Below, one piece after another: positions 53,613 through 64,000 of a stretch of DNA of 64,000 nt (position 1 is the stretch's first letter; each line of letters opens with the position of its first letter). This DNA is from Lachnospiraceae bacterium oral taxon 096. GTDB lineage: Bacteria; Bacillota; Clostridia; Lachnospirales; Lachnospiraceae. Made by a program: the position numbers and the translations under genes. Location of the stretch: positions 351,001-415,000 of the forward strand of contig CP073340.1 in assembly GCA_018141845.1 (NCBI GenBank), read 5' to 3'. Below the pieces are notes generated by a model. It saw nothing but the letters and a program-made list of their open reading frames with translations. It did no database searches and had not been told where the DNA came from.

Positions 53613-54551
53613 CTACAACAAGTTTGCCAAAGATCGCATCACTAAATCAATATCTTGATTTTCCAACTCGTGAATAATATGTAAATAAGTCTTTTGCGTT
53701 GTATTCATGCTGGCATGTCCCAATCGCCTCGCCACACTTCCAATGGAGACACCTGCAAACAACAAAATAGAGGCATGGGTATGTCTCAGCCCATGAATGG
53801 AAATCTCTGGTATACCAAGCTTTTTGCAGTATCTTTCCAAGATGGTATTGACGGTAGCATTATAGATCGGAATATAGCTACCGTCCTTTTTTGCCGGAAT
53901 AAAAAATGGTTTATCCCTTGGCCTATCCTTCAAGAGTCCAGAAAATTGCATCACGGTCTGCCAATCAATTTGGATTTTTCGCATAGAAGACTTATTTTTC
54001 GTCGGCATAAATCCTCTATTAGACTTATAGTCCCAAGTCTTTGAAATCTCCACTGTCTGATGGGCAAAGTCAAAATCACTTGGTGTCAGTGCCAGTGCCT
54101 CTGAAAAACGCATTCCTGTTTTGGCCACCAACAAAATAAAATAATCCCAGTTCACCTTGTCGCCAAGCTTTAAACTCTCCAACAATTTGTGCAACTCAAA
54201 TTGATTTAAGAATTTTTTCTTCTTCTTTCTCGGCTCTTTCCCCTTGATAATCACCTTTCTTGTCGGATCTCTCTCAATGAGGCCATCATCCAATGCGTCC
54301 AAAATTGCTCCCTTCACCTGATGGTGAAAGTCCATTGTCGTCTGACGCTCGTGAAACTTTGCATAGTCATTGATCAGTTGCTGATAGACGATCCTTGTCA
54401 TCTCACAAACCTTTACATCTGGAATAAGGCGAGCAATCCACTGCTGTGTCATTCGATACTTTTCCATTGTAATCTCACGAATTGCTCCCTCTTTATAAAT
54501 CTTTATCCACTGTGCATAGTAGTTCAAAAATAAATCGGTCTTCTTATCCAT
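53613..54551 (-). CDS. Tyrosine recombinase (phage-type integrase) next to hsdR
   Basis: 312 residues from ATG 54551. The N-terminal SAM-like DNA-binding domain covers about residues 1-110. Catalytic residues are visible: R in TGMRFSEALAL, H-x-x-R in IHGLRHTHASIL, H in LGHASMNTTQ, and Y in KTYLHIIHE. The gene is only 35 bases after hsdR and in the same direction. Recombinases encoded beside hsdS genes invert or shuffle target-recognition domains in many bacteria, which fits the duplicated domain at 57850-58317. It could alternatively be a relic of the island's own integration. Confidence 0.9.
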   Translation of the reverse strand: MDKKTDLFLNYYAQWIKIYKEGAIREITMEKYRMTQQWIARLIPDVKVCEMTRIVYQQLINDYAKFHERQTTMDFHHQVKGAILDALDDGLIERDPTRKVIIKGKEPRKKKKKFLNQFELHKLLESLKLGDKVNWDYFILLVAKTGMRFSEALALTPSDFDFAHQTVEISKTWDYKSNRGFMPTKNKSSMRKIQIDWQTVMQFSGLLKDRPRDKPFFIPAKKDGSYIPIYNATVNTILERYCKKLGIPEISIHGLRHTHASILLFAGVSIGSVARRLGHASMNTTQKTYLHIIHELENQDIDLVMRSLANLL

Positions 54552-54586
54552 ACTCCTCCATCCCACACACTGACAGAGCAATTTCT

Positions 54587-57500
54587 TTATTTTTCTTCCT
54601 CCTCGCCAAATGGAATGGGATGATCGTACATAATAAATTCCTTTAATACTTTTTTTGCATAACGAATTGCCTGCAAGTTCGTACCTTCCCTATGGTGTAC
54701 TCGCTGATAATATTTTCTTGCCAGTTTATCATCAATACTGTTTTCCAATGCAACTGCTCGTCCCCCTTCTTTATAATATTTTGGCTTATTCATTACCAAA
54801 TCTCTAAGTTTTTCTTCATCCACACCCAACTTCTCTACCGGATCTCGAATTTCTCTATTTTTCCTACTTTCGCCGTAGCTCGCAATATAATCTCGAAAAG
54901 TCTTTCCTTCTTCAACTTCTAACCTTCCTGTCTCAATATCGCGAATAATTTCTCTAGCTAAGTTTTGATCATCCTCCGACAAGGTAGATAAATTCTTCTC
55001 TAGCTCCTTGAGAAGCTCTTCCTCCCTTTCCTTGATTGGATTTTTTCCATTTCGATAATCCGTCCAGATTTTAAATTTCCTATCCAGATACTCAGCCGTA
55101 ATTTTTTCGTTCTGAATGGCTGATAAATTCACACCAATATCATAAGCAAAGGCTCCCGCACGATTTCTTTCTTTTCCCCGCTTTGCCATCTCATTGCAAC
55201 GCATCAACAGTGTCAGATACTCTTTCTCTGTCACCTTAACCTCAATGCCATCTTTTCCAATCTCATCAGAAACAACGACTTTATTCCAATCAAAACCTTG
55301 CAATCTTGCCGAAGTATAACTTTCTTGAAACTTTCTTGTCAATTGAGCAATCCTTGCCTGTGTGCTCTCATCCTCTGGAAGTCTTGACATATCCAAAATT
55401 CCATTTGCCACAAAGATGTCCTGAATTTGCTCAAAAATCTGATTCATATTCTCTACATTGGACGGTAGTTTATTGGCAAAAATGCCATCTTCCCTCTTCC
55501 TAGCAAACAATGCAAACGCATCATCCATATTTTTCTTCATTGTATGCGGACTTCGATAGTAGCGAATAATACCAAAGGGCTTTTCATTTCGATTATAAAT
55601 TCGATTTGTTCTCGAAAATGCCTGAATAAGATTTTGATAATCTAATAGCTTATCCAAATAGAGCGTATTGACAAACTTGGAATCAAATCCTGTGAGTAAC
55701 TGATCGACAACAATCAATAAATCTAATTGCTTTTCTTTTTCTACTTGAGAATAATTTTCCTTGTGGGCCAGTCGTCTGGTCACATCCTTTTTAAACTCTG
55801 GCCATCTTGCAATATCAAAGTCTGGGCCAAATTGGTGTTGATAACCTTCCAAAATCTCAACAAGACCTCTTTCCTTATCCATGGACTGCTCGCCCTTTGT
55901 ATCATCAAGATTCTTATCAAAAAGACTCGTCACTTTAAGCTCTGGCCATTGTCTTCGAAATCGCCTATAGTAGTCAATGGCTGCAGGAATACTGCTGGTT
56001 GCAAAAATAGCATGAAATTTTCCACCAAAGCTCAATCTATCCCAATGATCTTTGATGTCCTTGATTACCCCATCTCTATAGTTATCGCTGTCATACTGCC
56101 CTTTGGGAAGCTTAGCTTCAATATCCACCTCTGACATATTTTGATACTTTTGATAGACTTCTAGTTTTTTTGGATTAGTGCGAATCTCATTCATGTCTTT
56201 AGCCTTGCACTCATCCTTTGTCAATTCCTCTTTTAAGTCCTCATCTGCATAAATTTTTACCATTGTCGGATCAAATCCCAACACATTTTCATCTCGAATG
56301 CCATCTGCAATCGTATAGGTATGAAGATTATCTCCAAAAATATCTGCTGTCGAAAGGGAACTCTTTGCATTCTCATCAAATATTGGTGTTCCCGTAAACC
56401 CAAAGAGTAATGCCCTAGGAAATGCTTTGCGAATATTGGCAAACATATCTCCATTTGTCGTCCGATGACATTCATCAAAAATAAAAACCAATCTCTTTTT
56501 TCGAATTTCCTCTAATTCCTTTTCTCTTCGTAAGCTCACTGCTTCCTCGCTCACTCTATCCATTTTTTGAATTGAGCTCACAATCAACAAGTCCTTTGGA
56601 TGATTTCCCTTCATCTTCGACAATAAAACTCCTGAGTTTCCTGTCTCTTGCACAATATCTTCATCTGCAAATGCCGTGTACTCTCGAAATGACTGTGTGC
56701 CCAACTCAATGCGGTCCATCAAAAAAATAACTTTATCTGCCAATTTATCTCTCGCAATTAACTCTGCTGCCTTAAATGAAGTCATGGTCTTTCCTGAACC
56801 AGTGGTATGCCATACATATCCCCCCTGTCCATCCTTGCTATCCCAATCATGCTCTCTTGTCTTTTCATAAATTTTGTGCACTGCATAATATTGATAGCTT
56901 CGCATAACCTTTAACACACAATCATTGTCATCTGCAATCGTATACCAACCAATCAACTCATGAGCCATAGGAATACTCAATAAATGTTTTACCACTTCTT
57001 GCCAATCCCTAATTTGATTATTTTCTATATCCGCCCAATGAAAACAAAAATCTGGATTGACTGCCTTTCCTGAACTAGGATTTGCAAAATAAATCGCGTC
57101 TTCTGGAGTCATGGCCACAAAGATTTGCACCAGTGAAAAAATACCTTCAAATATATTTTCCTCACAATACTTTGAAATCTGTCCCCTTGCCTCTTCAACA
57201 TTCCCACCCGATCGCTTTAATTCAATGTGAATTACTGGCATTCCATTGATTAACAGCATCAAATCCCCACGCCGATCCTGTAATTTTGAATGTTTTCGAC
57301 TAAACTTTGGCTGTTGAACAACTTGATATCTACTCTCCCCAGCTCTTACCTTTTTGGGATCATAAATATTCAAACTAATTTCTTTTCCAAAATTCTCTCT
57401 ATCTTCTTCATTTGTCCTCTTAATGGTTACACTCTTGCCCTTAATGATTCCATTAATAGCATATGGTGTGGCTATCTTAATCTGATCAATAATTTGTTGC

Positions 57501-57721
57501 ATCTCATCTTTATTAAGCTTCACACCATTGAGCCTTGACCTCTCACTATTATTCTTATACAGAATGTCCGCCCAATTTTGAATTAAATCTTCCTCTGTTG
57601 GATACTTAATGACATTCTTCTCACGACTTCCCGTCTCATTGCCATTGCTCCAACCATATTTTAGCAATAAGTCAATCACGGCCTCCTCAAAATCTGCTTC
57701 TTTTTCAAACTTCACACCCAT
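54587..57721 (-). CDS. hsdR: Type I restriction enzyme, endonuclease/translocase subunit HsdR
   Basis: 1044 residues from ATG 57721, or 1042 from GTG 57715, which has the better Shine-Dalgarno spacing (eight bases after AGGAGG; two for the ATG). The PD-ExK nuclease is around MPVIHIELKRSGGNVEEARGQ (about residue 170). Walker A HTTGSGKTMTSFKAAEL, DECH box FDECHRTTNG and later helicase motifs follow. A C-terminal helical domain binds the methylase. The reading frame is open upstream as far as 58255 and joins an hsdS fragment, but RBS and family length favour the internal start. It needs HsdM and HsdS to cleave DNA. Confidence 0.93.
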   Translation of the reverse strand: MGVKFEKEADFEEAVIDLLLKYGWSNGNETGSREKNVIKYPTEEDLIQNWADILYKNNSERSRLNGVKLNKDEMQQIIDQIKIATPYAINGIIKGKSVTIKRTNEEDRENFGKEISLNIYDPKKVRAGESRYQVVQQPKFSRKHSKLQDRRGDLMLLINGMPVIHIELKRSGGNVEEARGQISKYCEENIFEGIFSLVQIFVAMTPEDAIYFANPSSGKAVNPDFCFHWADIENNQIRDWQEVVKHLLSIPMAHELIGWYTIADDNDCVLKVMRSYQYYAVHKIYEKTREHDWDSKDGQGGYVWHTTGSGKTMTSFKAAELIARDKLADKVIFLMDRIELGTQSFREYTAFADEDIVQETGNSGVLLSKMKGNHPKDLLIVSSIQKMDRVSEEAVSLRREKELEEIRKKRLVFIFDECHRTTNGDMFANIRKAFPRALLFGFTGTPIFDENAKSSLSTADIFGDNLHTYTIADGIRDENVLGFDPTMVKIYADEDLKEELTKDECKAKDMNEIRTNPKKLEVYQKYQNMSEVDIEAKLPKGQYDSDNYRDGVIKDIKDHWDRLSFGGKFHAIFATSSIPAAIDYYRRFRRQWPELKVTSLFDKNLDDTKGEQSMDKERGLVEILEGYQHQFGPDFDIARWPEFKKDVTRRLAHKENYSQVEKEKQLDLLIVVDQLLTGFDSKFVNTLYLDKLLDYQNLIQAFSRTNRIYNRNEKPFGIIRYYRSPHTMKKNMDDAFALFARKREDGIFANKLPSNVENMNQIFEQIQDIFVANGILDMSRLPEDESTQARIAQLTRKFQESYTSARLQGFDWNKVVVSDEIGKDGIEVKVTEKEYLTLLMRCNEMAKRGKERNRAGAFAYDIGVNLSAIQNEKITAEYLDRKFKIWTDYRNGKNPIKEREEELLKELEKNLSTLSEDDQNLAREIIRDIETGRLEVEEGKTFRDYIASYGESRKNREIRDPVEKLGVDEEKLRDLVMNKPKYYKEGGRAVALENSIDDKLARKYYQRVHHREGTNLQAIRYAKKVLKEFIMYDHPIPFGEEEEK

Positions 57722-57757
57722 GCCCTCCTGACAGCAATAATTTCTAACCATTTTATA

Positions 57758-57786
57758 ATTATAATCTACTCCATAGAATAAAGAAA
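57758..57786 (-). promoter_or_regulatory. Possible separate promoter for hsdR
   Basis: A perfect TATAAT (57758-57763) lies about 37 bases upstream of the hsdR ATG, with a weak TTTCTT (57781-57786) 17 bases before it. It would let hsdR be expressed despite the element inserted between hsdS and hsdR. The -35 match is poor. Confidence 0.4.
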
Positions 57787-57849
57787 AGCAACAAAGGCAT
57801 ATAATTTCAATTATCTGTATTATTGTATTCAACATTACAATGCTAAAAT

Positions 57850-58317
57850 GCTTACGCTGATGAAGGGATATGAGGTGGTCGAGATTGGTAAAATAGTTGC
57901 CTATCGACACCTGTTCTTGTTTTTTAGGTAAAAGCATATTAATTTCCATAAGTGTTTCTGCATTCAACTTGGCACGACCCCCGCCAACCAGTAATGCTTC
58001 AATATCTGCTTGACTGATAGCAAATGCGAGAAACTTGTTGTCTGCAATTTCATTCTTGCTTTGCAGCACATGGGCGTGGTTGTTCACCCAAATACGCCCT
58101 TTTACACACTTTACGGGATAGTTTTTGAGGTCATTCGCCCCGTCCTCAGCAACAAGAACAAACTCGCCTTCGTGAGTATAACCGTCAACATAATCTTGTA
58201 TTCCGTTTGCTCCATAATAAGGAGTCGAGCCAGAAATACGAAGATTTGCAGCCACAGGAATGCGAAGATTATCATATCTATCTGCGACTTCTCGAACCTT
58301 ATGTTGTTCCCAAGCGT
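57850..58317 (-). pseudogene. Displaced copy of the second HsdS target-recognition domain
   Basis: 468 bases, identical base for base to 59961-60428 in hsdS, same orientation. It codes from AWEQHKVREVADRYDN through AANLRISGSTPYYG to LDHLISLHQRK, exactly one target-recognition half with its bounding conserved segments. It lacks an hsdS N-terminal half and start. It begins after an in-frame stop and an FNN-AWEQ junction resembling that of domain 1. It is open into hsdR, so a 1222-residue reading frame exists. Most likely it is a silent cassette or a by-product of recombination, not an expressed specificity subunit. Confidence 0.85.
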
Positions 58318-58393
58318 TATTAAATACTCCCCTATATTATCTGCAATGCTACCTATAATATTTTTGATAAAATATTCAAAGATTAACTTACTT

Positions 58394-58560
58394 TTATGCT
58401 CTTATTAGCTGTAGTGAACTACCCATCACCTAAAGGTAATGGGCTTCTAAGAGCCTAACAGCTCTATTTAAGAAGTTTGATATTTAAGTTTCCACCTAAG
58501 TAATTAGGCAATCCTTATTCTTATCGGCGTGTCCACTTCGCCTCTACTGTATAGGATATT
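58394..58560 (-). ncRNA. Predicted omega/reRNA at the right end of the TnpB element
   Basis: In IS200/IS605-type elements the tnpB 3' end and right terminus are transcribed as a guide RNA bound by TnpB. Here a hairpin CCCATTACC-TTTA-GGTGATGGG (about 58423-58444) precedes AGTTCAC (58414-58420), a plausible right end. The next 20 bases outward, minus strand TACAGCTAATAAGAGCATAA, would be the guide. RNA limits are approximate. Confidence 0.45.
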
Positions 58561-59754
58561 CATATCCACAACACTACTTTTACGCATGATATTTAATGCT
58601 CCGTTAACATCTGCATTGATTGTTTTACCACTTGCCGTTTTGTATAGACCACGATGTAATCTTCTGCCACTAAACGGATACTCTTTTGGATTATCGGCAT
58701 TGTAAACAGGGAGATCGTCTCTATCCCAAAAAGATGATTTCGATGTATAGGATTCTTCCTGTTTTACAAAAACAATGTCATTTAGTTTGCAAAGATATTC
58801 CAATTTGTTACGCAACTGTCCATAAGGGATATTTACAAAATTTTGATTGTTTTGCTTTCCAATATGACTGTTATGTTGAAAAGTCTCATTGTAACCAACA
58901 ACAAGCGTACCTATATTATTGATGATACAATAATCTATCACCCTACGAACAGTTTTATTCATATAGTCGTTCACCTTATTGTTGCGATTACGAGCAACTG
59001 CTTTTTGTCTATTTGTAGGCTTTCTACTAAAATGCTGTTTATCTTTTATCGATTGCAAACGGGCATTTTCTTTATTGAACCACTGATTGATCGATTTCAG
59101 TCTTTTCCCGTCAATAATGAACGATTGACCACTATTTGATACAGCTGTTACAAGATTGTTGATACCTAGGTCAAGTGCAAGTGCGTTGTTCGTGTTTAGA
59201 TTTCTTTGAATACATTCAGCTTCATATATATACTGGATTTCAAAGAACCTTGCATTCGCTTTCGGTATAATGCGTATCTCTTTTATCGTCTTATCAAGAA
59301 GTATGGGTGGTATCGTAATTTCAACAGACTTATGCGTTTTCTTAAAACTATTGGAAAACGGAAGTATCAGCTGATTACCCTTAAGTCTTACAAAACCAAT
59401 GATCAGTGTTGTGTATCCATCTTTTGGAAGATAATGTGGCAGTTTACAATCCGTAAAAGCATATTTTCCCTGCTTGACAAGTTTAAGCAGACCAAAAAAT
59501 GATTTAAACGAGCCATCAACCTCTTTCAGTATCTGCTGTGCCATATTGGAATTTAAGGCCTTATAATTAGGGCTATTCTTTAAAAGAGTGTAATTCTTCT
59601 CATACTTGAGAAATTCACCTTCTGTAAAATAATGCTGACGCACATTATAGATTGCCTCATTAGCAAGATTCTTAGCCGTATGACAAAGTTCCCTGATTGT
59701 GATGTAATCTTCCTTGGACAGATGTTTCACTTGTTGTTTTACAGTAAGATACAT
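58504..59754 (-). CDS. tnpB: RNA-guided endonuclease TnpB (IS605 OrfB family), zinc-ribbon-less form
   Basis: ATG at 59754 (AAAGGAG eight bases upstream) gives 416 residues. The split RuvC site is intact: NALALDLGINNLVTAV (D), GTLVVGYNETFQ (E) and INADVNGALNIMRKS (D). The usual four-cysteine zinc ribbon between RuvC-II and RuvC-III is missing; in its place is ESYTSKSSFWDRDDLPVY, with no Cys-x-x-Cys pair. Zinc-ribbon-less TnpB lineages exist. It would cut DNA guided by the RNA from the right end, with a target-adjacent motif not identified here. Confidence 0.88.
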   Translation of the reverse strand: MYLTVKQQVKHLSKEDYITIRELCHTAKNLANEAIYNVRQHYFTEGEFLKYEKNYTLLKNSPNYKALNSNMAQQILKEVDGSFKSFFGLLKLVKQGKYAFTDCKLPHYLPKDGYTTLIIGFVRLKGNQLILPFSNSFKKTHKSVEITIPPILLDKTIKEIRIIPKANARFFEIQYIYEAECIQRNLNTNNALALDLGINNLVTAVSNSGQSFIIDGKRLKSINQWFNKENARLQSIKDKQHFSRKPTNRQKAVARNRNNKVNDYMNKTVRRVIDYCIINNIGTLVVGYNETFQHNSHIGKQNNQNFVNIPYGQLRNKLEYLCKLNDIVFVKQEESYTSKSSFWDRDDLPVYNADNPKEYPFSGRRLHRGLYKTASGKTINADVNGALNIMRKSSVVDMNILYSRGEVDTPIRIRIA

Positions 59755-59862
59755 ACGATTTTCTCCTTTCATAGACTCGGAAATAGGATTTCCTATATAT
59801 GTATTATAGCATATATTTTAAATGATAGTATTTAAGTAAAATATATATGTTGTAAACCTAAC

Positions 59863-59902
59863 GCCATTCATCCCATGGTCTAAAGACCATGGGATGAATG
59901 GC
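59863..59902 (-). other. Perfect 18-bp hairpin just after the hsdS stop (left-end hairpin or terminator)
   Basis: GCCATTCATCCCATGGTC (59863-59880), loop TAAA, then its exact complement (59885-59902). It lies two bases after the hsdS TAA. The absence of a U-run and its resemblance to the right-end hairpin suggest a transposon left-end structure, but a role in hsdS mRNA decay or termination is possible. Confidence 0.6.
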
Positions 59903-59904
59903 TG

Positions 59905-61065
59905 TTATATTATAAACATCTTTTCGAGCATAGATTTCTTGATATTTTTCAGTTTTTCCAGCTTACGCTGATGAAGGGATATGAGGTGGTCGAGATTGGT
60001 AAAATAGTTGCCTATCGACACCTGTTCTTGTTTTTTAGGTAAAAGCATATTAATTTCCATAAGTGTTTCTGCATTCAACTTGGCACGACCCCCGCCAACC
60101 AGTAATGCTTCAATATCTGCTTGACTGATAGCAAATGCGAGAAACTTGTTGTCTGCAATTTCATTCTTGCTTTGCAGCACATGGGCGTGGTTGTTCACCC
60201 AAATACGCCCTTTTACACACTTTACGGGATAGTTTTTGAGGTCATTCGCCCCGTCCTCAGCAACAAGAACAAACTCGCCTTCGTGAGTATAACCGTCAAC
60301 ATAATCTTGTATTCCGTTTGCTCCATAATAAGGAGTCGAGCCAGAAATACGAAGATTTGCAGCCACAGGAATGCGAAGATTATCATATCTATCTGCGACT
60401 TCTCGAACCTTATGTTGTTCCCAAGCGTCAGTAAAATCACTAAATCTAAGTTCTGGAACTTTTGCATCATTTTTTGGAAACATTTTTTCCAGCATTGATT
60501 TTTTTACTTTTTTCAGCATTTCTAACTTACGCTGATGAAGGGATATGAGGTGGTCAAGCTTATTAAAAAATTTTCCTATTATCTCTTGCTCTTGATATGA
60601 AGTTACCACCAAATCCATATTTAAAAATACATCTTCATGTACTCGCTTTGCTTTTCTACTACCATTAGCAGTCATCCCATTTCTAAGATAAAAATCTTTT
60701 TGAGTAACTCTTTCCAATAAAAATTTTCCATCTATATTATGAAGATCAAATGCAGGAGAATCTAATGTAGACTCATAATTATCAAGATCGTCAGGAACTA
60801 TTCCAAATGCTGCATGAAGAAAATCTAATTTCCCATACATAAACTGACCAGCATATCTCACATAATATCTAGTATTCTCACTTCCACTCAGTTTATCTGT
60901 CTTTTCTATGATACCCTTACCCCATAATTTTACAGTCAACTTCTTCGCATTTAATCCTGTATGTCCTGGAACTTTGCTTATAGAAAGAAACTCCCCTACC
61001 CGTCGTTGTTCCCAAGCGTTATCAAAACCTCTAAATCTCAATGCAGGTACTTTCTTTTCTTCCAC
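59905..61065 (-). CDS. hsdS: Type I restriction enzyme specificity subunit HsdS
   Basis: 386 residues with two half-domains. Domain 1 starts LRFRGFDNAWEQRRVGEFL and domain 2 LRFSDFTDAWEQHKVREVAD; each ends in LDHLISLHQRKLE plus a helix (LKNIKKSMLEKMF). The two target-recognition domains differ, so the site is bipartite and asymmetric. GTG at 61065 overlaps the hsdM stop by one base (TAGTG), ensuring co-translation. Domain 2 is duplicated at 57850-58317. HsdS forms the M2S methylase and R2M2S nuclease and sets the target sequence. Confidence 0.95.
   Translation of the reverse strand: MEEKKVPALRFRGFDNAWEQRRVGEFLSISKVPGHTGLNAKKLTVKLWGKGIIEKTDKLSGSENTRYYVRYAGQFMYGKLDFLHAAFGIVPDDLDNYESTLDSPAFDLHNIDGKFLLERVTQKDFYLRNGMTANGSRKAKRVHEDVFLNMDLVVTSYQEQEIIGKFFNKLDHLISLHQRKLEMLKKVKKSMLEKMFPKNDAKVPELRFSDFTDAWEQHKVREVADRYDNLRIPVAANLRISGSTPYYGANGIQDYVDGYTHEGEFVLVAEDGANDLKNYPVKCVKGRIWVNNHAHVLQSKNEIADNKFLAFAISQADIEALLVGGGRAKLNAETLMEINMLLPKKQEQVSIGNYFTNLDHLISLHQRKLEKLKNIKKSMLEKMFII
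59961..60428 (-). repeat. Expressed copy of the duplicated target-recognition domain
   Basis: The hsdS half of the 468-bp perfect direct repeat with 57850-58317. A 30-base element (plus-strand start CTTACGCTGATGAAGGGA) recurs at 57851-57880, 59962-59991 and 60526-60555. A 15-base element, GTTGTTCCCAAGCGT, recurs at 58303-58317, 60414-60428 and 61005-61019. Both domains of hsdS and the silent copy are therefore bounded by the same short repeats. Confidence 0.95.
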
Positions 61066-63653
61066 TAGTGCTCCCTCCCGCTCAAAAGTTTTTGAAGTTC
61101 CCGAATTCCTGCAAGGTCGGTCTCTGAACCTGTCAATTCGCCCAGCATTTTTGAAAGCTCGTCTTGAGTATCTTGAATTTCCTTTTCCAAGTCCTCAAAT
61201 GTGTCGGCATACTTATTTACTAATGCCTCAATGCCCTTTTTAAATTCATCGACAACCTTTATTGAGATAGCAATAATCTCATCATAAATTGGCACAATCC
61301 ATTTCTGTTGCAAAAGTTCAACAACCTCTGTATCACTCAAATTTTCAATCCGATCTCTCGTCTCCAAGTGAAGTGCATCATCTCCTGCCTTAATTTCTGA
61401 CTTTAGCTTCTTTTCCTCTTTTGTCAGTGCATCCACTTCCTCTAGTTTTTCCACAAGGCTCTTGCTCTCCTCGCTGTCCTCAGACTTGAGTGCCTTTATC
61501 ATTGCTGGAATGGTTTTGATGACAAAAGCTGTATTATCTTCATTGAGTGTCTCTGAAATACTTTCCTTGTCGTCCTCTGAAAGTTCCTCAAAAATTTCCT
61601 CTATGCGAGATGGAATTTCTGTAAGGCGGTTTTTCTTCTCCTCTACTTCTGCCAGTTTGTCCTTGAGAAGTACTCTTTGTACGAGGTCAAATGGCAAAAT
61701 ATGTCCCTTCCATCCATCCTGTTGCTCCTCTTCTCGATTGTTCTTCTTTCTGAGTACCATGTTGGGATCGACCATACGAACAGCATTGATTCCCTCTTTT
61801 TGAATGTTTTCTAAATCACCTGCAATGCCACCATATGCCTTTTTAAAAATTTCATAGACTTCATACTTATCAACCAATGGAATATCGCCAAGACGCTCAA
61901 AAATATCTTTGACAATATCCTCCTCTGTTGCCTGAATTCTTACACTTTCTGCATGGTCAATAAGATTCTTGGAAAGCTTTTCTGTAAAGTCAGCAAATTT
62001 TTCTCTGTAATTTTCCTGAAACTTTTGTACTCCTTGATTTTCTCTCAATATCTTTGGCAACTGATCTGTTTCCACGACCAAGTTGGCATAATTTCCATCA
62101 CTGTGAAATAGCTCTTCTTTGAGATGATCAAAAACGGCAAAGTACTTTGCAAATTTTTTCAACTCACTCTCTGGAATTCCGCCAAACATTGAAGCATAGA
62201 TATCCCAGCTCTCGGCATCTTCTGAGGAATCCACATATCTTGGAATATTGAGATTGTAATCATTCTTTCTAATTTCTTCGATGCCAACTAGGCGAGAATA
62301 TTTTTCAATATCTGCTCTTGCACGAACGGTATCAACAATTTTTCGGATGTCACAGGCACGGAGCTTATTGCTCTTTCCCTCCTTGATAAATCCTTTGGAC
62401 GCATCAATAAAGAGAATAGCTCTAGAAGTCTTATTTTTCTTTAATACAATGACAATGGTCGGAATTCCTGTTCCAAAGAAAATATTTGCAGGCAATCCGA
62501 TAATGGTGTCAATGTTATTTTTTTCAATTAAGTTGGTTCGAATCCGTCCTTCCTCTCCCCCTCTAAATAATACGCCATGGGGAAGAACAATAGTCATAAT
62601 GCCCTCTGGTTCTAGGTGATAGAGATCATGCAGCAAAAAGGCATAATCTGCCTTGGCTTTTGGTGCATAGCCATACTCGCTGTATCTAGGATCTCCATCA
62701 TGTTTGCTCGGATCCCAGCTCTGTGAATAGGGTGGATTGCTGACAACTGCAGAGACGGCCTTTCTCTGATAAGTGCCCACAGGGTCAACTTCATCAAAAA
62801 TTGGCCAGTCATTATCCAATGTATCTCCATTTCTCACTGTGATGTTGTCCTTATTGATATCTCTCATAACCAAATTCATTCGAGTCAAATTATAGGTATT
62901 GGTGTTTAATTCCTGTGCATAGTAGTGAATCGCATTTTTATCATTCTCATACTTTTGCCAAGCTTCACCAATATTTAATAACAAAGATCCTGAACCTGAA
63001 GTCGGATCATAGACATTGATCTCCTTGCATCCCTTTAAATGATCAGCTACAATTTCTGCCATTAGAGCTGACACTTCATGTGGTGTGTAAAATTCCCCTG
63101 CCTTTTTTCCTGCATTAGAAGCAAACTTTTCAATCAAATACTCATAGACATAACCCAGAACATCATAGCCCTGTTTTCCATCCGTTGGAATGTCCTTAAT
63201 CAAGTGAACGAGCTCCCTCACCGCTCTATTTTGTGCCTGTGTATTTTCTCCAAGCTTACTCAGTCCTGTTTCCAAAGTATTAAAGATTCCGCCAAATACC
63301 GCCCTTGCTTTCTCCCCTTCAATGCTATCAGAAAATTTACTAAGAGCTAAACGCACATCATCAACTCCAAAATCAAGCCCCTTGTCTAACCAAGTCTGAA
63401 AGAGATTTTCATAGGTAATCACATATCCTAAATCATCACAAATCTCACTGTGAATTTCCTCATTTTGTAGCTCTTCCATTGCTTCTTCCCTGTTCTGGCA
63501 ACCATTTTCTATAAGCCAGTTGATTTCCTTATCAGAGATAAACTTATAGAAGATAAATCCCAAGATATAATCCTTATACTCATACGCCTCAATCTTTGAG
63601 CGCATACGATTTGCCGATTCCCAAATTTTTGCTGCTAATTGCTGTTTATTCAT
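61065..63653 (-). CDS. hsdM: Type I restriction enzyme modification subunit HsdM
   Basis: 862 residues, long for HsdM because of an added C-terminal coiled-coil region (about residues 620-862, rich in E, K and L). The N-terminal HsdM domain (LAAKIWESANRMRSKIEA) is followed by the SAM site DPTSGSGSLLLNIGEAWQ and the adenine-methylase motif VSNPPYSQSWD. It methylates adenine in the bipartite site set by HsdS and protects host DNA. It lies 51 bases after the partial DIP1984-like gene. Confidence 0.95.
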   Translation of the reverse strand: MNKQQLAAKIWESANRMRSKIEAYEYKDYILGFIFYKFISDKEINWLIENGCQNREEAMEELQNEEIHSEICDDLGYVITYENLFQTWLDKGLDFGVDDVRLALSKFSDSIEGEKARAVFGGIFNTLETGLSKLGENTQAQNRAVRELVHLIKDIPTDGKQGYDVLGYVYEYLIEKFASNAGKKAGEFYTPHEVSALMAEIVADHLKGCKEINVYDPTSGSGSLLLNIGEAWQKYENDKNAIHYYAQELNTNTYNLTRMNLVMRDINKDNITVRNGDTLDNDWPIFDEVDPVGTYQRKAVSAVVSNPPYSQSWDPSKHDGDPRYSEYGYAPKAKADYAFLLHDLYHLEPEGIMTIVLPHGVLFRGGEEGRIRTNLIEKNNIDTIIGLPANIFFGTGIPTIVIVLKKNKTSRAILFIDASKGFIKEGKSNKLRACDIRKIVDTVRARADIEKYSRLVGIEEIRKNDYNLNIPRYVDSSEDAESWDIYASMFGGIPESELKKFAKYFAVFDHLKEELFHSDGNYANLVVETDQLPKILRENQGVQKFQENYREKFADFTEKLSKNLIDHAESVRIQATEEDIVKDIFERLGDIPLVDKYEVYEIFKKAYGGIAGDLENIQKEGINAVRMVDPNMVLRKKNNREEEQQDGWKGHILPFDLVQRVLLKDKLAEVEEKKNRLTEIPSRIEEIFEELSEDDKESISETLNEDNTAFVIKTIPAMIKALKSEDSEESKSLVEKLEEVDALTKEEKKLKSEIKAGDDALHLETRDRIENLSDTEVVELLQQKWIVPIYDEIIAISIKVVDEFKKGIEALVNKYADTFEDLEKEIQDTQDELSKMLGELTGSETDLAGIRELQKLLSGREH

Positions 63654-63704: not shown

Positions 63705-64000
63705 TTATTCTTCCAATTCCACTGTCCAATTGCTTGCCTGTAGAGCATTGTCGAGCAGGCGAACTTCCTTTGCAATATCGTCTGCTTGCTTTTGAATCTT
63801 TGCCACATCCACTGTCGATAAAATCTTAATTTCTGTTCTCGTTGCACGATGTGTATTTTGACTTGCTTCTTCTATGATATTTCTTAGAACTCTTTGTTTG
63901 AGAATCAATGCATCTTTTCTGGCGATGCAAGCGGTCATTGTCTTTCCATCGACCAATGTCTTACTATTGGTGATATTGATTCTCTCCATCAAATACTCTA
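63705..64000 (-). CDS. DIP1984-like protein, C-terminal part (N-terminus beyond the window)
   Basis: The visible ~98 codons end the gene at 63705 and match the C-terminal half of DIP1984-family proteins: RINITNSKTLVDGKTMTACI, EIKILSTVDVAKIQKQADDI and a terminal ASNWTVELEE. Helical, probably septicolysin-like in naming only; the function is unknown. These genes are often found next to type I restriction genes, so it may be part of the island. Confidence 0.8.
   Translation of the reverse strand, partial: EYLMERINITNSKTLVDGKTMTACIARKDALILKQRVLRNIIEEASQNTHRATRTEIKILSTVDVAKIQKQADDIAKEVRLLDNALQASNWTVELEE

Follow-up and report, generated by a model that had tools for sequence, protein, structure and literature searches.

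The minus strand of a 64,000-nucleotide stretch of Lachnospiraceae bacterium oral taxon 096 (contig CP073340.1, positions 351,001 to 415,000; hereafter the window, with coordinates counted from its first letter) carries a type I restriction–modification (RM) locus in which one target-recognition domain (TRD) of the specificity gene hsdS is present twice, once within the gene and once as a silent cassette beside hsdR. The data suggest, with a probability that we put at roughly 0.78, that this locus is a recombinase-associated, TRD-shuffling store, where TRDs bounded by two short elements, W and L, move among three places: hsdS position 1, hsdS position 2 and the silent slot on the hsdR side. 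The evidence comes from the exact ends of the repeat, the flanks specific to each place, the differing TRDs found per slot within one lineage and the sharing of TRDs between both hsdS positions. In minus-strand order, the locus consists of hsdM (63653-61065), hsdS (61065-59905), an element carrying tnpB, the silent cassette, hsdR (57721-54587) and a tyrosine recombinase gene (54581-53613). All three of hsdM, hsdS and hsdR are present, and every RM and TRD coding sequence lies on the same strand, the repeats being direct. The repeat-related features, the elements from repeat comparison and the cassettes from sequence identity, are:

61005..61019, minus strand: W before TRD1, 15 nt
60526..60555, minus strand: L after TRD1, 30 nt
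60414..60428, minus strand: W before TRD2 in hsdS
59962..59991, minus strand: L after TRD2 in hsdS
59961..60428, minus strand: hsdS copy of the TRD2 cassette (exact repeat)
57850..58317, minus strand: silent TRD2 cassette, the other copy, with W at 58303-58317 and L at 57851-57880

Sequence comparison of 57850-58317 and 59961-60428 gives identity over exactly 468 bp with 0 mismatches, stopping at both ends. The repeated unit is TRD2, the C-terminal HsdS recognition domain, and its second copy lies between hsdS and hsdR in direct orientation; the copies being direct, the window lacks the inverted repeats that separate hsdS copies in inverting loci such as Listeria CC8 and SpnIII/Spn556II. Pfam Methylase_S (PF01420) is above cut-off at both cassette copies, i.e., the locus holds extra hsdS/TRD sequence, and a search of the genome found the cassette nowhere beyond these two copies. 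On the coding strand, the repeat opens with W, a 15-nt element at the AWEQ codons that begins TTGGGAACA, and closes one base past L, a 30-nt element at the LHQRK codons that ends CTTCATCAGCGTAAG. W and L border both TRD positions of hsdS as well as the silent slot. The flanks outside W and L are specific to the place and not to the TRD: W is preceded by the residues GFDN at position 1 and SDFTD at position 2, while L is followed by LEMLKK at position 1, LEKLKN at position 2 and HFSIV on the hsdR side. An earlier note on this DNA had described a perfect 468-bp direct repeat, cut at 15- and 30-base elements that also flank domain 1, with a TnpB element between the copies. The repeat and its cut points stand, without mismatch or extension on either side, and so do the cassette and the TnpB element (58414-59911), with the correction that the latter is an insertion inside the 3′ end of hsdS, with a 96-bp non-IS spacer between it and the cassette; the tyrosine recombinase gene past hsdR (53613-54581) had been overlooked. 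The note also saw the hsdR-side copy as closer to the domain 1 junction, and over 27 nt from 58303 it is indeed 89% identical to that junction and 81% to the domain 2 junction, which on its own is weak evidence.

To what extent TRDs vary in these places can be read from related proteins. Two protein searches with HsdS as query (the best 120 of 7989 and the best 120 of 7472) gave 231 distinct proteins, and a third, with the junction of the silent cassette and hsdR as query, gave 82, i.e., 313 in total. The linker LEMLKK[VI]KKSMLEKMFPKNDAKVPE of the window hsdS is present in 26 of the 231 proteins (among the matches listed). In 27 junction proteins the HsdR part is 97.2-99.6% identical to that of the window (27/27), the remaining matches being distant. 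These 53 proteins constitute the lineage set; that they represent one species is judged from the hsd genes alone, most are metagenome-derived, and single junctions may be wrong. From them, 92 TRD segments were cut and grouped by single linkage at 90% identity into 26 TRD families (among the matches listed), four of which are known only from truncated pieces.

Seven of the 13 multi-member families occupy both the first and the second position in two-TRD proteins, and P0184 and P0185 carry the same two families in reversed order. The TRD1 of the window occupies the first position in P0001, P0003, P0032, P0036, P0044 and P0048, and the second one in P0080 and P0091; the same TRD is therefore found in both hsdS positions, flanked by two pairs of repeats. 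TRD2 takes the second position in P0001, P0003, P0049-P0051 and P0105, and P0232 has it as the sole hsdR-side TRD; at 100% identity it was never seen in first position among the lineage proteins. P0003 is contained in the HsdS of the window, and P0001 differs from it by two residues (by eye). The residues before L read LDNLIS in P0232 and LDHLIS in P0001 and both window copies; therefore, the cassette copies need not match exactly in every strain. Beside hsdR, the 14 open reading frames (ORFs) with a single TRD represent 12 TRD families.

Taken alone, the window could be accounted for by a single event, a one-time tandem duplication of TRD2 that was later split by the insertion sequence (IS) with no functional exchange, and the exact identity and direct orientation of the copies suit such an event. 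We regard this as very improbable, since 12 TRD families in 14 single-TRD slots lie next to near-identical hsdR, TRD1 is found in both positions and three other loci show the same duplication pattern (see below); the lineage variation in the slot beside hsdR refutes it. The earlier note read the repeat as a whole recognition-domain cassette placed outside hsdS and open to domain exchange at short repeats, and said that a duplication that happened once and left no other arrangement would overturn this reading. As far as database sequences go, most of which are metagenome assemblies, that outcome is excluded, and lineage proteins with differing TRDs in both hsdS positions and in the hsdR-side slot support the reading. 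TRD exchange between close relatives is seen in database proteins only. It is also highly implausible that the second cassette copy is an assembly artefact. The repeat is exact and the assembly alone was examined; however, the genome is a single contig of 2.24 Mb, and TRD2 is found in separate proteins both ahead of the hsdR tail (P0232, P0105) and at the second hsdS position (P0001, P0049-P0051), of which P0001 and P0232 may come from a genome near that of the window. As a whole, the pattern of TRD variation is hard to explain by error.

The genes of the locus and the tail that joins the silent cassette to hsdR are:

61065..63653, minus strand: hsdM, modification subunit, 862 aa (Pfam N6_Mtase and HsdM_N; NCBIfam TIGR00497 above cut-off)
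59905..61065, minus strand: hsdS, the expressed specificity gene, comprising TRD1 and TRD2, 386 aa, GTG start, final codons inside the IS (PF01420 at residues 214-373; PDB 1yf2 HsdS, E 6.2e-8)
57722..57849, minus strand: hsdR-side tail, sharing the frame of the silent cassette and of hsdR (AGGAGG at 57724-57729, just upstream of the hsdR ATG)
54587..57721, minus strand: hsdR, restriction subunit, 1044 aa (HSDR_N, SWI2_SNF2; TIGR00348 above cut-off)
53613..54581, minus strand: tyrosine recombinase, 322 aa from TTG, relatives aligning from about residue 12 (PF00589; single copy in the genome)

In NCBIfam, HsdS had no match and the recombinase had matches below cut-off only. In the window the silent cassette, tail and hsdR form one open frame (58255-54587, minus strand), as they do in 27/27 lineage proteins, where the frame stays open across the TRD and the tail as far as HsdR; 14 of these have one TRD and 13 have two. 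Fused HsdS/HsdR ORFs are also present at loci L044, L166, L173 and L175. We do not claim an HsdS-HsdR fusion as a real protein, hsdR having its own AGGAGG and ATG; that the junction match list contains no unfused HsdR of the lineage may reflect gene callers picking the longest frame. Seven of the 27 fused ORFs (P0233, P0237, P0238, P0240-P0243) run from an hsdS start through two TRDs into hsdR. They fit an excised state in which the loop between the last two L elements is lost, a state that we do not claim because, where a TRD is duplicated, assembly software could leave out this very loop.

Moreover, the recombinase beyond hsdR is linked to hsd genes outside this genome. The residues R158, K195, H263, R266 and Y299 are present in 38/38 aligned relatives and H289 in 37/38; we take R, K, H-x-x-R, H and Y to be the catalytic residues. 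Among 397 genomes of the family, 31 have a recombinase match at 1e-30 or better, own genome included, and the 30 other loci were fetched, some shortened by contig ends. In these family loci, hsd genes were matched in 24/30, two or more HsdS ORFs in 15/30 and a recombinase immediately following hsdR on its strand in 15/30. An unrelated phage integrase is disfavoured, as the gene is single-copy in the genome and 24/30 relatives adjoin hsd genes. In a second set, the best 80 of 240 genome contig loci selected via HsdS, 12 have a recombinase match, that of L048 being weak only. Extra direct HsdS sequence between hsdS and hsdR is found in eight family loci (L160, L161, L162, L167, L170, L173, L174 and L175) and in three HsdS-selected loci (L044 of Peptostreptococcus porci, L052 of Absicoccus porci and L053 of Atopobium fossor), while inverted HsdS copies are present in three family loci and six HsdS-selected contig loci.

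The nucleotide conservation of W and L was compared in 34 loci having both recombinase and HsdS (the window, 12 HsdS-selected and 21 family loci). The WEQRK codons are TGGGAACAGCGTAAG in about 79-80/85 sites, one site at an ORF start differing between counts, and in 51/54 sites of the 21 family loci, for which the recombinase was the sole basis of selection. For control peptides the commonest encoding accounts for 3/14 (LEKMF), 4/16 (KKSML) and 2/11 (PEIRF) sites, and for 2/30 (TGSGKT) and 3/21 (DECHR) in HsdR and 3/24 (EFYTP) in HsdM. LHQRK is encoded by CTTCATCAGCGTAAG in 34/56 sites, and consensus W and consensus L share CAGCGTAAG. These data bear on the rival in which ordinary RecA homologous recombination at short repeats, inside one cell or between cells, moves the TRDs, as proposed for DOMO, and the recombinase is unneeded. 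W and L are indeed shared 15- and 30-nt repeats, the window has degenerate forms of W, gene conversion would suit near-identical copies, and the DOMO description reports such movement together with TRD duplication (PMC3077401). We nevertheless consider this explanation unlikely, if one to be taken seriously: the nucleotide conservation of W far exceeds that of the control peptides, and the recombinase family adjoins hsd genes in 24/30 loci. In addition, 15 nt, the length of W, is short for RecA-dependent exchange.

Several observations weigh against a recombinase-driven store. Switching within a clone is a supposition drawn from sequence comparison, and most variants are metagenome proteins, which may include assembly chimaeras. 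L is identical in only 12/31 sites of the family loci, i.e., it is less constant than W. The W 15-mer also occurs in 10/14 WEQRK sites (and the L 15-mer in 12/19 sites) of 68 contig loci with no recombinase match, a group that includes short contigs and is not a clean negative control. No hsd match was obtained in 6/30 recombinase loci (L165, L180, L184, L186, L187 and L188), of which three hold recombinase fragments, and the L186 recombinase is only 42% identical; L165 and L180 carry close relatives of the recombinase (71% and 64% identical) with no matched hsd gene in the fetched stretch. Finally, the window copies of W are degenerate in their right half, with 2/15 mismatches to TGGGAACAGCGTAAG before TRD2 and 4/15 before TRD1, and the L core is exact in three copies. 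The degenerate half of W together with the intact L core speaks against a simple site model that needs the whole W 15-mer. At the W sites (61005-61019, 60414-60428 and 58303-58317), the window lineage has AWEQ followed by HK, RR, CK, RC, KE or RH, rarely RK, while RK with fixed codons after AWEQ is the rule in other recombinase loci.

The duplication itself recurs. Self-comparison of the 34 loci, counting cassette-long copies at least 99.4% identical, identified near-identical copies in 4/34, always shared by a full-length HsdS ORF and an HsdS ORF with one TRD:

window: 468 bp, direct, exact, 0 mismatches
L054, Bifidobacterium callitrichos: 518 bp, inverted, 2 mismatches
L170: 501 bp, direct, 3 mismatches
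L177: 523 bp, direct, 2 mismatches

In all four, identity starts with TTGGGAACA or a few bases ahead of it and stops inside L or at its end. Since neither inversion nor excision-reintegration by itself would yield a second copy, the near-perfect duplicates suggest copying or an exchange between sister chromosomes.

The features of the element that separates the two window copies are as follows:

58414..59911, minus strand: IS200/IS605-type element, tnpB being its only gene (edges from 10 genomic copies)
58504..59772, minus strand: tnpB, 422 aa (PF01385, PF07282; NF040570 above cut-off)
59912..59916, minus strand: TTTAT target adjoining the left end of the IS (10/10 genomic copies)
58318..58413, minus strand: 96-bp non-IS spacer from the right end of the IS to the silent cassette, its first bases the predicted TnpB guide (IS edges)

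The genome has 10 full copies of the element; the left end is directly 3′ of TTTAT in 10/10 and the right end reads ...GGGTAGTTCAC in 10/10. The insertion is located in the 3′ end of hsdS. When the IS flanks are joined in silico, hsdS reads to ...KMFITANKSIKVS followed by a stop, and with the element in place HsdS ends ...KMFII. Of the 26 linker proteins, 22 have the ending ...FII and one the ending ...FI, and three (P0080, P0091 and P0105) run into the hsdR-side tail; an uninterrupted FITANK tail is present in none of the 313 proteins. Since FII is the ending predicted by the IS junction, the IS is probably present in those 22 proteins, as judged from two residues. The element has no tnpA, and 18 PF01797 (TnpA-type transposase) matches, several of them broken, are found elsewhere in the genome. 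A plasmid search yielded one Butyrivibrio plasmid, matching the part with the TnpB element. Another copy of the element is positioned just beyond the window end (G000:C1:415175-416677), in the same orientation and about 520 bp upstream of hsdM, such that hsdM and hsdS are bracketed by two direct copies.

Given its place exactly between the two cassette copies, TnpB might be thought to drive the copying, with its guide directing a cut in hsdS and the break being repaired from the silent cassette. TnpB guide RNAs end in the sequence adjoining the right end of the element. That sequence, the predicted guide, is TACAGCTAATAAGAGC... and not cassette sequence, and the right end, as set by the 10 copies, is 96 bp off the cassette, for which reason a cassette-derived guide is rejected. 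In the three other duplicated loci no TnpB relative was matched. We therefore hold TnpB-driven copying to be exceedingly improbable. The element looks like a bystander insertion, because its edges and TTTAT target match those of the nine other genomic copies. Judged from titles and abstract openings, none of the papers pairing hsdS with TnpB in the library searched is on such a locus.

In the mechanism that we propose for a recombinase-associated store, a TRD would move in frame among hsdS position 1, position 2 and the silent hsdR-side slot, thereby changing the DNA sequence that is recognised. The tyrosine recombinase beyond hsdR would carry out the exchange at W and L. The present state, with TRD2 in both hsdS and the slot, would be due to recent copying, via conversion or sister-chromosome exchange, given that conservative swapping by itself would not yield a duplicate. 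The TnpB element, inserted in the 3′ end of hsdS, is now between the last two L elements. A more far-reaching combination can be offered only tentatively: the recombinase would copy any of at least 26 lineage TRDs, via W and L within the coding sequence, into either half of hsdS or the silent slot, giving up to n x n specificities; copying would be common and perfect duplicates would mark recent events; the TnpB element would now be part of the inter-L segment, where tvr keeps regulators; and some cells might lose this segment, with hsdS reading into hsdR.

If TRDs can enter either half of HsdS, the locus would be an open-ended specificity generator, relevant to phage defence, to gene exchange and to gene regulation through methylation. 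The near-identical duplicates of a cassette, found at four loci from four genera, raise the question of whether hsdS-shuffling recombinases only swap or also copy. Moreover, W and L together may serve as a nucleotide signature by which such loci can be recognised, those in direct orientation included. The REBASE survey looked for inverted repeats, so that direct-orientation loci would be outside its design (PMC7394358).

Other features of this genome stand apart from the shuffling. A DIP1984-family ORF is located upstream of hsdM (63705-63992, minus strand). A second type I-like locus (L128, G000:C1:532000-551000) has HsdS-like genes of 398 and 368 aa with a 331-aa ORF between them; a relative of the tyrosine recombinase was looked for in this locus with no match. 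An Rfam search over 57500-61200 gave two matches, both under gathering scores and taken as chance. The genus-level search covered the own genome only.

How does this locus relate to known systems? A literature search with the letters of the elements gave one relevant match, the hsd locus of Listeria monocytogenes CC8, which is invertible and has an integrase and the recombination sequences agcttgggaacagcgt and ctatcgctcttcatcagcgtaagttagat (PMC4783014). Both are type I RM loci, the integrase has the tyrosine-recombinase residues, and agcttgggaacagcgt and ctatcgctcttcatcagcgtaagttagat are the counterparts of W and L. The Listeria locus inverts between two full, opposed hsdS genes, whereas here there is one direct TRD, a recombinase beyond hsdR and an IS between the copies (PMC4783014). 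The pneumococcal Spn556II/PsrA locus likewise has a one-TRD hsdS adjoining a tyrosine recombinase and a 15-bp repeat, at which PsrA acts; there, the repeats are inverted and the outcome is inversion, in contrast to the direct copies here (PMC4948785). The pneumococcal tvr locus (SpnIV), where a recombinase drives TRD excision and reintegration at direct repeats in 2+1, 3+1 and 2+2 layouts, has in common with the present locus the same-orientation TRDs between hsdM and hsdR, the 2+1 layout, a tyrosine recombinase and two direct-repeat types that share a core (PMC6265443). It differs in having the tvrATR genes mid-locus, where we find an IS with tnpB, the recombinase being past hsdR. In addition, N- and C-terminal TRDs stay in position in tvr, unlike the 7/13 multi-member families seen here in both (PMC6265443). 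DOMO, described for Helicobacter pylori and others, includes TRD movement between positions, TRD loss and TRD duplication; it resembles the present locus in its x-TRD-y-x-TRD-y repeats, in TRDs that occupy both positions and in duplication, while the linked recombinase and the silent hsdR-side slot are named nowhere in the portion of the DOMO description at hand (PMC3077401). The IS is like other IS200/IS605-type TnpB-only elements with respect to tnpB, a fixed left-end target and constant edges (10/10), and unusual only in its place inside a TRD-shuffling locus. Relative to these known kinds, what is new is the layout, the position-independent shuffling of a large TRD pool and the recurrent duplication; least expected are a position-independent pool of 26 TRD families (among the matches listed) in one lineage and the recurrence of near-perfect duplicates.

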